From: Candidatus Bathyarchaeota archaeon
Lineage (GTDB): Archaea; Thermoproteota; Bathyarchaeia; 40CM-2-53-6
Direction: 5' to 3'
NCBI GenBank assembly: GCA_005888745.1
Contig: VBBS01000036.1
Location: forward strand, 1-38,055
DNA: 38,055 nt
Positions 9,873 through 21,000 of this stretch are shown here, one piece after another. The notes beneath the pieces were generated by a model. It ran no database searches. It was not told the origin of the DNA and saw nothing but the letters and a program-made list of their open reading frames with translations. A program made the position numbers and the translations under genes. Numbering within the stretch: the stretch's first letter is position 1; every line of letters starts with the position of its first letter.

Positions 9873-10265
9873 CTAAGGTCTCAGTCCCTTGGATCGTATC
9901 TCGAGCGCTCTCACGAAACTTGGAAGCTCCTCTACGCTACGGACTTCGGTTCTGGCGAGGCCGCGGATCTTCCTCCATACTTGATCGTCTGCAATAATTC
10001 CACGGTGAGATAGCTCCTGGTATAGCCATGTTCCCAGCTCTCCTCCTTCCCTGTCGAAATCGGTTAGTACAATTGCGCGCTTGGACCCATCGAGCCGTTC
10101 TATGAACCTGAATCTCGGCTCACCTGTAGCTTTGAGGCAGAGGATTGTTCCCTTGATCCCCAGTTTTCTTAGTGCTGCCTCGTCTCTTCTTCCTTCGACA
10201 ATGATCGGTACCCCGCCGTTTGATTGTTCTTGCAGATCTTCGAAGATCCGGGTCGCTCTCTCCAT
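9873..10265 (-). CDS. Small Toprim-domain protein
   Basis: 130 residues from ATG 10265. The Toprim signature is plain: VEGRRDEAALRKLG (the conserved acidic glutamate) and LTDFDREGGEL (the DxD pair). It is a stand-alone archaeal Toprim protein of the kind related to DnaG and RNase M5 catalytic cores, which probably acts on nucleic acid with Mg2+. A TTG at 10337, 11 nt after the tyrS stop, would add 24 residues, but family members start near the ATG chosen. It is co-directional with and just downstream of tyrS, so the two are probably co-transcribed. Confidence 0.78.
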   Translation of the reverse strand: MERATRIFEDLQEQSNGGVPIIVEGRRDEAALRKLGIKGTILCLKATGEPRFRFIERLDGSKRAIVLTDFDREGGELGTWLYQELSHRGIIADDQVWRKIRGLARTEVRSVEELPSFVRALEIRSKGLRP

Positions 10266-10347
10266 TTTTCGGGTGTAGAGGTCGATTCGCGGGTTTCGAA
10301 CGTGTGCGGGATATCGTCGTCGGTTTGGAGCTACCAAGCTTGAGGGA

Positions 10348-11462
10348 TTACCTCGCTTCCAACTTCTGCATCTGTTCTAATGGCTCGGGATGCTTGTCGA
10401 AGTATTCTCGCACTCCTTTGAGGATGTCGGCTAGTATTCTTGCCATGTTTGATTTGAGGTCTTGTGGGTGGATCTTTCCGGTCTTGTATGCTTCCTCGAG
10501 TTCTTTGTGTGTGGAGAATTTCATGTCTCCTCCGTATTTCTGGTCCCTGTTCAACGTGACGGTTTTGTTTGCGGGGAAGGCGAGGAGTCGGTAGTATTCG
10601 ATTACCGGGTTTCCCTCGACTATCTTTGGTGGGCAGTATGCTTTGCGCAGTTTCTCCTCGATTAGTTCAGGCGAGTCGTGGAGCAGTATCGTGTTTTCCG
10701 GTTTACTCTTCGACATCTTTGCCGCAATCACACTGCTTAGCTTAGGATCCTCGTCGTAGCTTCCTTTCTCGGATCCTTGGATGCCGGCAAGGCCCATTAG
10801 CATGGGTGTGTGGAGTGCGACGGGCTTTCCCCATCGCAATTTCTCGCCCGCTTCGCGTGCTAGGACGTGGGCCTTTCTCTGATCTATTCCCGCGCAGGCC
10901 ACGTCGAGGCTCATCTCGAAAATGTCTGCTGCTTGCATGCATGGATAGAATAGGCTGGCGGTTTCCACCTCTTGGGCTTTCAAGTCGCGGCCCATGATTG
11001 GCAGCGCTCGCATTACACGTTGTGCTGTTGTGGTTTTGGCCACTCTAATGACTCGTTCCCAGTAGTTGGGTTTGCTGGCGAGTTCTGAGGCCCAGATGTA
11101 TTCGACTTTGTCCTCGGTCAGTCCTAGGGCTGTGAAGCAGTGTTTGAAGTATTCGCCGGCTGCCTCGATCTTTTCCATATCGCCCCCGAACTTGTTATTG
11201 ATCATGCTGTGCCAGTCTGCGAGGAATATGATGAAGTGGAATCCCGCTTGGACCATGTCCTTGATTTTTGTGCCGCAGACGAGTCCTGTGCCGATATGCA
11301 TCATTCCAGGCAGCCGTGTTAGGCTGGCTGCTTTCCGGAGCATTCGAAGCCCCAGTATGCTCGAGGCTTCGTTTTCTCTTCTAGGACACGCTGTAGTTCT
11401 ATGGGCTGGATGATCTCCACAGTTCCCTTTGTGACTAGTTCGAGGCGTTGCCCCTGGTTCAT
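10348..11462 (-). CDS. tyrS: Tyrosyl-tRNA synthetase, archaeal type, interrupted by a 29-nt intron
   Basis: Class I enzyme that charges tRNA-Tyr. Exon 1 (11462-11333) starts at ATG with GGAGG 5 nt before it and encodes residues 1-43, ending AYWGFECSG. Exon 2 (11303-10348) continues MMHIGTGLV, LADWHSMINNK, the GIDQRKAHVLARE segment, KMSKSK and KAYCPPKIVEGNP. The family requires CSG-x-x-HIG, which is met only if 29 nt (11332-11304) are removed: 130 + 956 nt then give exactly 361 codons plus stop. Read unspliced, exon 1 ends after 47 residues at TAA. The insert folds as a bulge-helix-bulge intron (separate entry). The C-terminal part could start at ATG 11343, but it would lack the first part of the nucleotide-binding site. 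Cys replaces the usual Pro in FEPSG. The Toprim gene follows closely. Confidence 0.9.
11304..11332 (-). other. Predicted bulge-helix-bulge intron in tyrS mRNA (29 nt)
   Basis: Reading the minus strand: CCGG (11338-11335), bulge AAA (cut after the second A), GCAGCC, a 10-nt loop, GGCTGC, CTGG (11309-11306), bulge AAT (cut after the second A). CCGG pairs with CTGG (one G-U) as the central 4-bp helix, and GCAGCC with GGCTGC as the 6-bp intron helix. An outer ATGC/GCAT pairing in the exons adds support. The cut sites expected of the archaeal splicing endonuclease, after the second base of each 3-nt bulge, release exactly 29 nt and join CSG to MMHIG in frame. Confidence 0.82.
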
Positions 11463-17451: not shown

Positions 17452-20439
17452 CTAGCCTTTCGCTACTCCAATCGGAGTCATTCGGACGACCTTCTGGCCG
17501 ATCCCTAGCTGATGGCTGACCTCGACCACACGGTCTACATCCTTGTATGCGCCTGGAGCTTCTTCGGCCAACACCTCCATACTGGCGGCCCGAACTACGA
17601 TGCCTTGACTTTCCAGACTCTTCTTGAGGTCTCCTCCAATCCATTTGCGCTTTGCGCCGGATCGGCTCATGAATCGGCCTGCTCCGTGTGCTGTTGTTCC
17701 GAAGCTAAGTTCCATTGCCCTTGGGGTTCCGATTAGGACCCAGCTGCTTGTGCCCATACTTCCTGGGATCAGAACTGGCTGTCCCACGTCTCGGTACTCA
17801 GCCGGTACGTCCTTGTGGCCTGGCGGAAATGAGCGGGTCGCGCCCTTCCTGTGAACAGTCACCTTCCTTGTCTCCCCGTCTATCATGTGAGATTCGAATT
17901 TTGCCACATTGTGGGCGACGTCGTAGACGATCTTCATATCGAGAGAATCAGCTGGGCGTTGGAAAACCTTAGAGAACGCTTCCCTCGCCCAGTGAGTTAT
18001 CATCTGCCGGTTGACAAAGGCGAAGTTGCAAGCGGACGACATGGCACGGATGTAGTCCTCAGCCTCCGGACTCTTACTAGGACATGCTGCCAGTTCCCGA
18101 TCGGGAAGCTTAACGTTGTACTTGTTGATGGCTCTCTCCATCACCCGTAGGTAGTCACTGCAGATCTGGTGACCATACCCTCTACTACCAGTGTGAATCA
18201 GAACAAGAATCTGACCCTCATTATGGATCCCGAGACGCTCCGCAACACGCTTGTCAAAGATCCTATCCGCCCGCTCGATCTCAATGAAATGATTCCCACT
18301 ACCCAAGCTACCCAGCTGCGGAGCCCCACGCGACTTCGCACTGCTCGACACCTTGGCAGGATCAGCAGCCTCCATACAACCCTCTTCCTCAATCGTCTTC
18401 GGATCCTCCGGCCAAGCATAGCCATGATCCACGGCCCAATCAAGCCCATCCGTAACAGCACGATCCAGCTCCGTCAGGCTGAGCTTGACCTGGCCACGAC
18501 TTCCCAGACCGGAAGGTATGAAATTGAAAATTGTATCCACGAGCTTCGGAAGGACCGGGCGAACCTCAGCCTCCGTCAGATTCGTTCTGATAAGCCGAAC
18601 GCCACAGTTGGAGACGACGAAACCATTCGCAATGAAGTTGTGTGCATCAGATGCCGTCGTGAAGTCATACACATCCTCATCAAAGTCAGCCACTTCTTCA
18701 ACGCTCACAACTTCGTCCCAGACGGCACCGGAGGAACCTAGTCCCTTAGTGGCAAGTCTCAGGAATTCATCGAAGGTCGAAAACCCACTCGGAACTCTCG
18801 GAACGGTCTTGATCTGTCCTCTCATCGAGCGTCTGAGGAAGTGGCTACTGACGTTTCGCGACTCCAGATCATCGATCACTTCACTCTCTGATCTTCCCGA
18901 GTTTCTCATGGAGACGGCCATCTTTGCGGCTTCCGTTTTTTCCTTGAAGATTCTTGATTTGAGCTTGAGATAATGAACGGCGACGTTTGCTAAGTAAGAC
19001 TTGTTGAGATTGTACTCATACCCTACAGTCGACCAGAACCTGATCAAGTTCGAGGGTTCGCTGAAAACCATTAGACGAATTCTAGTCGAGGGACCGTTGA
19101 CACCTGCATAGACGTTCTCCTCGGCCGAAAGGACTCTAGCCCTCACGCCGAAATCCTGCAAAAGAGCAGCAATACTCGTCAGCAACTTCACGCCGGAACC
19201 AGCAACAGCAGCCTTCTTGTTCTGGCCTAGCATAGGCGCGTAGAAATTGTATCCATGCCCGGTTACTGTCTTCGGCTTGGAAAGATCCGCTCCAAACAGA
19301 GACGCCAGAAAAAGCCTCTTAAGCCATTTAGGCAAAGCAAATAGCCAATCAGGGAGGCCGAAATCCTTTGCGGCTTTCTTTCCAAGAGGCGTGCCCATAG
19401 CCGCAAGTAGAGAGATGAGACTTCTCGAGCGAGCTTTGAAAGCGCTTTCCGAAAAGCTGAACTTGTAATCGGAATATTTCGTCGTTATTCTTGATTCACG
19501 AGTTCTGGAGTAGATTCTTGAAGGCTTGAAGCCTAGTCGCTGAACGTCTCGACGAATCTCTTCGAGATCTTCGGGCTTGCCGTAAAACCATGCGACATGA
19601 GTCTTTGGAGTAAAGCTCAGGGTTCCGTCGCCGATGATGAATCCCATTATCTTGAGAAGGAGCGGTAGCTTTGCATTTTTCGAATTCAGCGGTAGGAGTC
19701 CTCTCTTTTCCAACTCTGTGCAAAGCAGTTCGTGACTACCGGGTATTGGGAGGGCCTGGATATCCTCCCTAGCCACAATGGAAAGCTCGGTAGGTTCTTC
19801 GTACTCGACTCCTGTGAAGGGAAAGACCGCGACCTTGGTTGTTCTCGGAATCTTTCCAAGCGGAACCATCCCTTTAGGCGTCAGAAACGGATGGTCTTCG
19901 GTAGCCAGAGCCTCATTTCCAAGAAGTGTCCGAACTTTCAAGATTTTTTTGGCCGGTCTACTGAGAAAACCCACGATGTCAGTCTCTCCAGCTCGAGTCC
20001 TCTCCTCAATGCAACGTACGCGCTGGCTCTTCCAATCCAAAGATAAGCTCGAAATAGGCTTTCCATAACCAAAATCGGTTAGAACAAGGCTGGAACCGCA
20101 AAAGCAGTTGATATCGTAGCCAACGCCTCCGGGGCTGATGAGTCCTTCGTCGTAGTCTGTTGCTGCTACGCCGCCTATTGGGAAGCCGTATCCTTCGTGG
20201 CCGTCGGGCATGGTGATTGCGTATTTGAGGATGCCGTGTAGGTGTGCGACGTTTGTGCATTGTTGGATTGTGCGGTCGGTTTTCATTTTGGAGAGGAGGT
20301 CTTGGTCGGCGTAGATTCTTGCTGGGACTTTCATTCCTGGTTGGTAGTCTTTGGGGACTTCCCAGATGTTGGGTTCGATTTGTGTGAGTGGGATTTGTGT
20401 GCTTGTGCGGTTGGCGAGTCCGGATCCTTGGTGGCTCAT
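17452..20439 (-). CDS. rtcB: RNA-splicing ligase RtcB containing an intein
   Basis: 995 residues as translated. The N-extein (1-111) ends GGVGYDIN and the C-extein (612-995) begins CGVRLIRTNL; joined they make an RtcB of 495 residues, the normal size. RtcB joins a 2',3'-cyclic or 3'-phosphate to a 5'-OH using GTP and Mn2+. The metal-binding Cys at the junction, HTGSRGYGHQ and the guanylylated His in TTAHGAGRFMSR are all present. In archaea it ligates tRNA exons after endonuclease cutting, which fits the intron-bearing tRNA-Ser and tyrS here. A TATA box at 20476 gives a short leader. Archease is upstream on the same strand. Confidence 0.96.
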   Translation of the reverse strand: MSHQGSGLANRTSTQIPLTQIEPNIWEVPKDYQPGMKVPARIYADQDLLSKMKTDRTIQQCTNVAHLHGILKYAITMPDGHEGYGFPIGGVAATDYDEGLISPGGVGYDINCFCGSSLVLTDFGYGKPISSLSLDWKSQRVRCIEERTRAGETDIVGFLSRPAKKILKVRTLLGNEALATEDHPFLTPKGMVPLGKIPRTTKVAVFPFTGVEYEEPTELSIVAREDIQALPIPGSHELLCTELEKRGLLPLNSKNAKLPLLLKIMGFIIGDGTLSFTPKTHVAWFYGKPEDLEEIRRDVQRLGFKPSRIYSRTRESRITTKYSDYKFSFSESAFKARSRSLISLLAAMGTPLGKKAAKDFGLPDWLFALPKWLKRLFLASLFGADLSKPKTVTGHGYNFYAPMLGQNKKAAVAGSGVKLLTSIAALLQDFGVRARVLSAEENVYAGVNGPSTRIRLMVFSEPSNLIRFWSTVGYEYNLNKSYLANVAVHYLKLKSRIFKEKTEAAKMAVSMRNSGRSESEVIDDLESRNVSSHFLRRSMRGQIKTVPRVPSGFSTFDEFLRLATKGLGSSGAVWDEVVSVEEVADFDEDVYDFTTASDAHNFIANGFVVSNCGVRLIRTNLTEAEVRPVLPKLVDTIFNFIPSGLGSRGQVKLSLTELDRAVTDGLDWAVDHGYAWPEDPKTIEEEGCMEAADPAKVSSSAKSRGAPQLGSLGSGNHFIEIERADRIFDKRVAERLGIHNEGQILVLIHTGSRGYGHQICSDYLRVMERAINKYNVKLPDRELAACPSKSPEAEDYIRAMSSACNFAFVNRQMITHWAREAFSKVFQRPADSLDMKIVYDVAHNVAKFESHMIDGETRKVTVHRKGATRSFPPGHKDVPAEYRDVGQPVLIPGSMGTSSWVLIGTPRAMELSFGTTAHGAGRFMSRSGAKRKWIGGDLKKSLESQGIVVRAASMEVLAEEAPGAYKDVDRVVEVSHQLGIGQKVVRMTPIGVAKG
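18607..20106 (-). mobile_element. Intein with LAGLIDADG homing endonuclease in rtcB
   Basis: 500 residues (Cys112 to Asn611 of the precursor). Splicing blocks are clear: N-terminal Cys, ATEDHPFLT (block B with the TxxH-like His), and the C-terminal block VYDFTTASDAHNFIANGF ending VVSN before extein Cys. Two LAGLIDADG-type helices are seen (IMGFIIGDGTLSF near 264-276 and LFLASLFGADLSK near 376-388), so the endonuclease is of the dodecapeptide type. The insertion is directly before the metal-ligand Cys of RtcB, the same conserved site used by RtcB (Hyp2) inteins of other archaea. Both acidic residues are kept, so it may still be active. Confidence 0.93.
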
Positions 20440-20559: not shown

Positions 20560-21000
20560 CTAGAGGTCGAGTAGGAATCTGACCGTCGCTTTGCCCGGGT
20601 GTTTTTCTATCTCCATCAAGTGGTATGTTATTCCTTTGACCTCAACCTTTCCGTTGTGTCTGGCGCGGTCGTAGGATTCTCCGGCCACCTTGCCTTTGAG
20701 CCTCATTTCGACTTGAGTTGGAGTGATCGAGTTCACAGTAAAGCTTCCGAGGGCGAGCTGTTTGACTTCAAAGAGGAGCAAGAGCTCCTCAAGATAATTG
20801 TAGAGGAGTTCTTTCTCGTCATGGCCGTTGGTCCGGATTTCTACACCGGTCTTTGTCTGCACGCTCTTCACGTCGAGCATCGTGTCAAAGAGGGCTAGAC
20901 CGGCCTGAGAGAAGGCTTCTTCGAGGGTTTCCCCCCAAGCTTCTACGAACGCATCGGTTACATGTTCGAGAAACCTGTATCCTCCGGATGCTCCCAACAA
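20560..21000 (-). CDS. Archease, activator of RtcB
   Basis: 146 residues, normal size. The family N-terminus GYRFLEHVTDAFVEAWG carries the conserved acidic residue used to bind metal. SQAGLALFDTM, the central LLYNYLEELLLLFE helix and the final VKGITYHLMEIEK with RFLLDL are all typical. Archease speeds GTP-dependent guanylylation of RtcB and widens its nucleotide use. It lies upstream of rtcB on the same strand, 120 bp away, an arrangement well known in archaea, so the pair forms a tRNA-exon ligation module. Confidence 0.94.
   Translation of the reverse strand: MLGASGGYRFLEHVTDAFVEAWGETLEEAFSQAGLALFDTMLDVKSVQTKTGVEIRTNGHDEKELLYNYLEELLLLFEVKQLALGSFTVNSITPTQVEMRLKGKVAGESYDRARHNGKVEVKGITYHLMEIEKHPGKATVRFLLDL

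Follow-up and report, generated by a model that had tools for sequence, protein, structure and literature searches.

Archaeal tRNA introns, which occur with the hBHBh' form of the bulge-helix-bulge (BHB) motif or with its relaxed hBH and HBh' forms, follow motif rules in common with the element described here, an insert in the tyrosyl-tRNA synthetase gene (tyrS) of a soil archaeon; they differ from it in that the tyrS substrate would be an mRNA without a tRNA body. According to one report, tRNA introns range from 11 to 175 nt (PMC2738675), and the tyrS inserts lie within this range. Another counterpart is the intron of cbf5 in Desulfurococcales and Sulfolobales, like the tyrS insert a short BHB intron within a coding sequence, in phase 1 and at a catalytic-site codon. 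According to the same report, the cbf5 introns of Crenarchaeota interrupt the Asp codon between its first and second base, mostly show an 'unconventional' BHB, are cut between bulge bases 2 and 3 and are associated with hetero-oligomeric EndA, a form of the enzyme that is linked there to BHBs outside tRNA (PMC2738675). The initial annotation of our sequence had likewise mentioned cbf5 introns as known from Crenarchaeota. The report also describes the splicing of genes other than cbf5 as unconfirmed and refers to putative introns predicted in other protein genes, including ones of 12 bp in an archaeal virus (PMC2738675). The 46-nt BHB intron in the 5' UTR of HVO_1309 in Haloferax volcanii represents, as tyrS would, an mRNA substrate of EndA; in contrast to tyrS, this intron is untranslated and no reading frame depends on it (PMC7714728). 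In that paper, published in 2020, cbf5 is named as the only further archaeal BHB intron besides those of tRNA, rRNA and the 5' UTR case itself. Compared to cbf5, tyrS is another gene in another archaeal class, and its splicing is predicted from sequence.

The window, i.e. the whole stretch of 38,055 nucleotides analysed in this study, carries tyrS on the minus strand in two halves (exon 1, 11462-11333; exon 2, 11303-10348). Exon 1 starts with the ATG at 11462 and encodes MNQGQRLELVTKGTVEIIQPIELQRVLEEKTKPRAYWGFECSG; its protein ends in ...KPRAYWGFECSG, after which KQPA and a TAA stop follow in the same frame. The protein encoded by exon 2 begins with MMHIGTGLVCG, ends at 10348 and matches NCBIfam NF006330 (tyrosine--tRNA ligase) with 370.6 bits at a cut-off of 220. 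Exactly 29 nt separate the CSG and MMHIG halves (29 mod 3 = 2), and joining the exons yields a spliced ORF of 1086 nt for a tyrosyl-tRNA synthetase of 361 aa. Direct reading thereby bore out what the initial annotation had claimed, namely a tyrS frame broken between CSG and MMHIG with a TAA four codons on, an insert of exactly 29 nt with a frame offset of 2 and, in agreement with the exon lengths, a spliced product of 1086 nt. Its position for the insert, 11303-11333, was correct as to the place in tyrS and included one exon base too many on each side, because the BHB rule places the exact span at 11332-11304. The features of the locus are as follows.

11333..11462, minus strand: tyrS exon 1, 130 nt (43 codons plus base 1 of codon 44); ORF 11319-11462; dN/dS 0.086
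11304..11332, minus strand: predicted 29-nt BHB intron, phase 1, after base 1 of the codon following CSG
10348..11303, minus strand: tyrS exon 2, MMHIG onward, 956 nt including the stop; NF006330 370.6 bits; dN/dS 0.068
11335..11338, minus strand: 5' side of the central helix, CCGG, exonic, 4 bp (pairs counted in the alignment)
11332..11334, minus strand: bulge 1, AA^A, predicted 5' splice site after base 2
11326..11331, minus strand: 5' arm of the intron helix, GCAGCC, 6 bp (BHB plan, pair count)
11310..11315, minus strand: 3' arm of the intron helix, GGCTGC (BHB plan, pair count)
11306..11309, minus strand: 3' side of the central helix, CTGG, intronic (BHB plan, pair count)
11303..11305, minus strand: bulge 2, AA^T, predicted 3' splice site after base 2

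Directly downstream of tyrS lies a small ORF with a Toprim domain (window 9873-10337, minus strand; 24.7 bits, cut-off 23.1).

The element itself shows an intron helix of 6 bp (GCAGCC/GGCTGC), a central helix of 4 bp (CCGG/CTGG) with one G-U pair, and the two 3-nt bulges AAA and AAT, all as initially described. From CCGG to the second bulge it folds exactly as a BHB at -14.0 kcal/mol, and the pairing probability of the central helix is 0.87 with 14-nt flanks; with 16-nt flanks, the BHB is not the minimum and a different fold is better by 7.5 kcal/mol. The z-score of the fold is -0.76, i.e. fold energy alone gives no support. Scanning both strands of the window, as had been proposed at the outset, for sites that combine a 4-bp helix, 3-nt bulges and a stem of 4 bp or more and would join two open frames did retrieve the tyrS element, along with enough others (49 candidates in total) that the scan alone does not discriminate. 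The canonical hBHBh' motif is defined, in the Haloferax study, by an outer helix h on the exon side that contains two or more Watson-Crick pairs (PMC7714728), and no such pair was found among the six outer positions here. Because a Watson-Crick outer exon helix is lacking, the predicted tyrS element is filed under the relaxed HBh' type and not as canonical.

It is by comparison, not from this sequence alone, that the BHB reading of tyrS stands beyond chance, because 31 distinct inserts at the same codon follow one plan. We anchored these inserts on the NNGG of the Ser-Gly codons, followed by three bulge bases, a stem-loop, four intron bases and three further bulge bases, and this layout, with its two 3-nt bulges, fits the 31 inserts. 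All four pairs of the central helix form in 25/30 inserts and three of four in the other five; the 31st (L059) again shows four. The intron-side helix h' extends over 3-9 pairs before the first mismatch (30 inserts), and its basal 4-bp stem is fully paired in 29/30, compared to a mean of 12.9 and a maximum of 20 when the 3' arms were redealt. The central helix occurs as CCGG/CTGG (the type of our archaeon), as CCGG/ACGG with one mismatch and as CTGG/CCAG, and more pair changes are found in the stem. The structure is both conserved and covarying: when 17 of the 31 inserts are aligned, 96.1% of 153 cells are paired, sliding the partners by 1-3 columns leaves at most 46.4% pairing, and changes on both sides of a pair affect 33 cells versus 11.0 in shuffles (0/500). 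Double-change pairs (5 versus 3.7) and extra pair types (11 versus 10.4) were not above the shuffles for these 17 inserts. A U-A pair could lengthen the central helix into bulge 2 in 30/31 inserts, and two adjacent Watson-Crick pairs stand beside the bulge in the outer helix of 8/31. In the fold models, the central helix pairs weakly in L026 (0.13) and not at all in L181. In a second clade of the same genus (L011, L013-L016), all five distinct inserts carry the G-A mismatch of the CCGG/ACGG type at the pair beside the 5' bulge, perhaps a variant tolerated by EndA.

The position of the cut was compared in silico across 81 proteins, 33 of them with the insert, after dropping loci whose protein was already included and proteins below 250 aa. 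A truncated tyrS fragment (G046:C4) was likewise dropped here and is included in the tallies of insert layout, folding, frame and outer helix. With both cuts behind bulge base 2, the residue following CSG becomes Leu (17) or Met (16); the corresponding residue of the 48 proteins without an intron is Leu (34), Met (7), Phe (5) or Pro (2). The cut initially proposed is therefore the one that restores a family residue in 33/33 proteins. Moving the cut one base earlier yields Met 17, Ile 9, Val 4 and Leu 3; moving it one base later yields 11 stops as well as Lys 10, Gln 6, Met 4 and Thr 2. For the clade of our archaeon, cuts after bulge base 1 or 2 mostly lead to the same product, and it is the CTGG/CCAG types that distinguish between them.

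A search of related genomes for tyrS with or without the insert, also recommended initially, located an insert at the CSG-MMHIG codon in 33/256 class genomes, all of them read as DNA and differing in insert sequence and length. These genomes spread over seven family groups (f1, f2, f4, f5, f9, f12, f18), originate from different project accessions and include three one-contig genomes (G056, G060, G061). As a rough denominator, the spliced protein matched in 230/256 class genomes at E <= 0.001, some of these matches being weak (e.g. 3.6e-5 in G011) and perhaps due to another synthetase. Of 30 loci read in relatives, 22 are interrupted at this codon by 21-29 nt and eight are uninterrupted; the insert is also absent from two relatives of the same family, G019 and G020. 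Within a set of named records (80 of 193 confirmed loci), 18/80 carry the insert, 43/80 do not and 19/80 did not match the motif pattern, 17 of these 19 (L124-L140) not being titled Bathyarchaeota. One of the patterns for reading inserts from DNA could detect inserts up to 28 nt only. The 31 distinct inserts measure 19-53 nt, and none of them can be read through, because 24 shift the frame and seven stay in frame and hold a stop. Hence, the tyrS insert recurs patchily across the class and is no singleton. A covariance model of the element matched 44/256 class genomes, comprising the 33 insert carriers (at least 46 bits over 51-85 nt) and 11 genomes without the insert (30-34 bits over 32 nt). 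Model R1, applied to 398 genomes of the phylum, gave 12 matches, 12/12 inside the class, and its indication of absence outside the class is weak because it was trained on class sequences and used with stricter filters.

Both tyrS exons are under purifying selection. Across 36 pairs from nine close relatives with 29-nt introns, median dN/dS values were 0.086 (exon 1) and 0.068 (exon 2); exon 1 is therefore still selected as protein. Mean identity was lowest in the intron loop (0.61), the fastest-changing part, and amounted to 0.82 for the whole intron and 0.86 and 0.85 for the exons. As a control we used trpS, the nearest paralogous synthetase, whose model is matched weakly by the tyrS exons. 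It is unbroken in the genome of our archaeon (profile 4-316, no stops) and full-length and free of stops in 16/18 genomes with a match above the cut-off, the two others being G007 (only 89-317) and G002 (two pieces). The two trpS pieces of G002 (C142:6090-7000; profile 2-201 and 206-317) lie in different frames, reflecting either a frameshift or another insert.

Two genes of the EndA family (PF01974; 95.4 and 47.9 bits) were identified in the genome. The Tyr/His/Lys triad is expected in the alpha subunit of EndA, and one gene, alpha-like, holds all three residues, with 3p1z_B as its best PDB match (1.6e-42). The other, beta-like, lacks them by reading and gives weaker matches to EndA chains (best 3.5e-16). 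With one alpha-like gene carrying the catalytic residues and one beta-like gene without them, an (alpha-beta)2 heterotetramer is therefore expected from the sequences. Such a composition corresponds to the hetero-oligomeric form linked to BHBs outside tRNA (PMC2738675). Candidates for exon joining lie in the window itself:

17452..20439, minus strand: rtcB, ligase of RNA splicing and candidate for joining the exons; PF01139 556.2 bits, split over two stretches
20560..21000, minus strand: archease, adjoining rtcB; PF01951 136.7 bits

Archease is the helper family of RtcB. A separate PF01139 search yielded 484.7 and 69.6 bits at window 17455-20262. The RtcB profile falls into two stretches of one 995-aa ORF, with PF14890 (Intein_splicing) between them at 35.6 bits (cut-off 35.8), and rtcB thus probably carries an intein.

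Taken from sequence and comparison, the insert very probably must leave the tyrS mRNA, both here and in many relatives. We consider it very likely that the 29 nt represent an archaeal BHB intron in this mRNA, which EndA would cut and RtcB, together with archease, would join; cleavage, ligation and the enzymes that act are what we infer. In the transcript, the exonic CCGG would pair with the intronic CTGG while the intron closes its stem-loop. EndA would then cut both 3-nt bulges after their second base, and RtcB, aided by archease, would ligate the exons into the 1086-nt ORF for the full enzyme.

A gap of this kind could also be crossed by the ribosome. Bacteriophage T4 gene 60 is such a translational bypass system, and the clade of our archaeon resembles it in having a frame-breaking gap, GGA on both sides, a stop and a hairpin. 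The ribosome would leave at the GGA before the gap, skip the hairpin and land on the matching GGA before ATG ATG. This landing codon occurs in 14/31 inserts; in the other 17, however, and unlike in gene 60, it is AGA or AGT without a match to the take-off codon. Moreover, resuming at the codon beside ATG would give Ile or Val in 13/33 proteins, whereas the BHB cut gives Leu or Met throughout, and a helix that stays paired while both of its sides change is consistent with an EndA site, making programmed bypass very improbable. We judge it highly unlikely as well that the enzyme is split, a short peptide supplying the N-terminus and assembling in trans with a C-terminal protein translated from its own start. 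Exon 2 does begin with ATGs in frame and remains open over a long stretch, and a stop inside the insert ends the exon 1 frame in 22/31 cases. In 9/31, however, exon 1 continues out of frame beyond the insert, the break falls within the HIGH-motif region, the inserts keep the BHB pairing and, among the matches listed, those of intronless relatives mostly extend over a single open frame, beginning at residue 1-6 and reaching about 359.

An assembly error or a decayed pseudogene appears extremely unlikely, even though the relatives are mostly metagenome assemblies by record title and a second tyrS piece in G046:C4 has decayed past its insert. The initial annotation had named an assembly error as a possible refutation, and despite G019, G020 and other relatives without the insert we find it not credible, because 33 class genomes carry differing inserts at one codon; their seven family groups, different projects and three one-contig assemblies, as well as the selection on both exons, point the same way. 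A second intact tyrS, another refutation it had put forward, was looked for: across the assembly of 2.2 Mb on 75 contigs, which is 93% complete, the tyrS protein gave a single match at E <= 0.001, to this gene itself, and no other tyrS was found. In addition to splicing, and not as an alternative to it, the insert might be retained for regulation, if splicing were incomplete and unspliced mRNA tuned the synthetase to splicing capacity. The other BHB insert of the genome also resides in an RNA-maturation gene, cbf5, which would suit this idea; the intron loop, in turn, is the fastest-changing part with no extra conserved signal and the intron is missing in many relatives, so we regard such a role as speculative and rather unlikely.

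The cbf5 gene of our archaeon (G000:C18:82955-83934; 1286-2265 in L143) is split at the catalytic Asp by 23 nt, and the BHB plan with the canonical cut yields T-L-D-P. Of 30 cbf5 loci (including L190-L218), 29 are interrupted by 17-23 nt at this codon, in the same phase throughout, and one is uninterrupted. Asp is restored with each of the 25 distinct inserts, 22 of which form all four pairs of the central helix and the other 3 three of them. The position is the one known from Crenarchaeota; a report of a cbf5 intron in Bathyarchaeia was not found in the open-licence literature searched.

To our knowledge, cbf5 is the one other conserved case of a BHB in a coding sequence, and on the present sequence comparisons tyrS would be the second conserved archaeal protein gene spliced in this manner. 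In line with the initial annotation, which knew of no established case in tyrS, our search of the open-licence literature found no BHB intron in this gene. A study from 2026 has mapped transcripts to genomes of Bathyarchaeia (PMC12918454). If the reading is correct, tyrS, an essential gene in a large uncultured class, would show that mRNA splicing by the tRNA machinery is more than a one-gene oddity, and gene callers would annotate tyrS, and also cbf5, in these archaea as broken or truncated genes. The tyrS intron would also allow a direct test of the substrates of hetero-oligomeric EndA outside tRNA. More tentatively, and in our view less likely than not, Bathyarchaeia may possess an mRNA-splicing programme based on tRNA-splicing enzymes, in which tyrS and cbf5 would be the first members of a wider set of genes interrupted by tiny BHB introns at active-site codons; such introns might be remnants of mobile elements favouring the most conserved codons, and might couple the output of genes for tRNA and RNA maturation to EndA/RtcB capacity.

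The presence/absence series at one codon provides natural material on the origin of such introns. On a quick tree of the 81 proteins, the insert requires at least 10 changes of state versus a shuffled mean of 25.7, and well-supported branches force three; this tree contains long branches that meet, and the 10 changes do not separate gain from loss. Either a single old gain followed by many losses or repeated gains may account for the pattern. The longest inserts, 53 nt in L180 (G211:C4) and 37 nt in L179 (G210:C59), have a longer, interrupted stem. The second, truncated tyrS piece mentioned above (L183, G046:C4:16000-17700) consists of exon 1, a 19-nt insert and a few codons of exon 2 before it decays, and the full tyrS of that assembly is found on contig C19. 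A tyrS with a 24-nt insert close to this archaeal genus also occurs in a public record titled 'bacterium isolate Centralia_MAG_577' (L069), which is probably a mislabelled archaeon.
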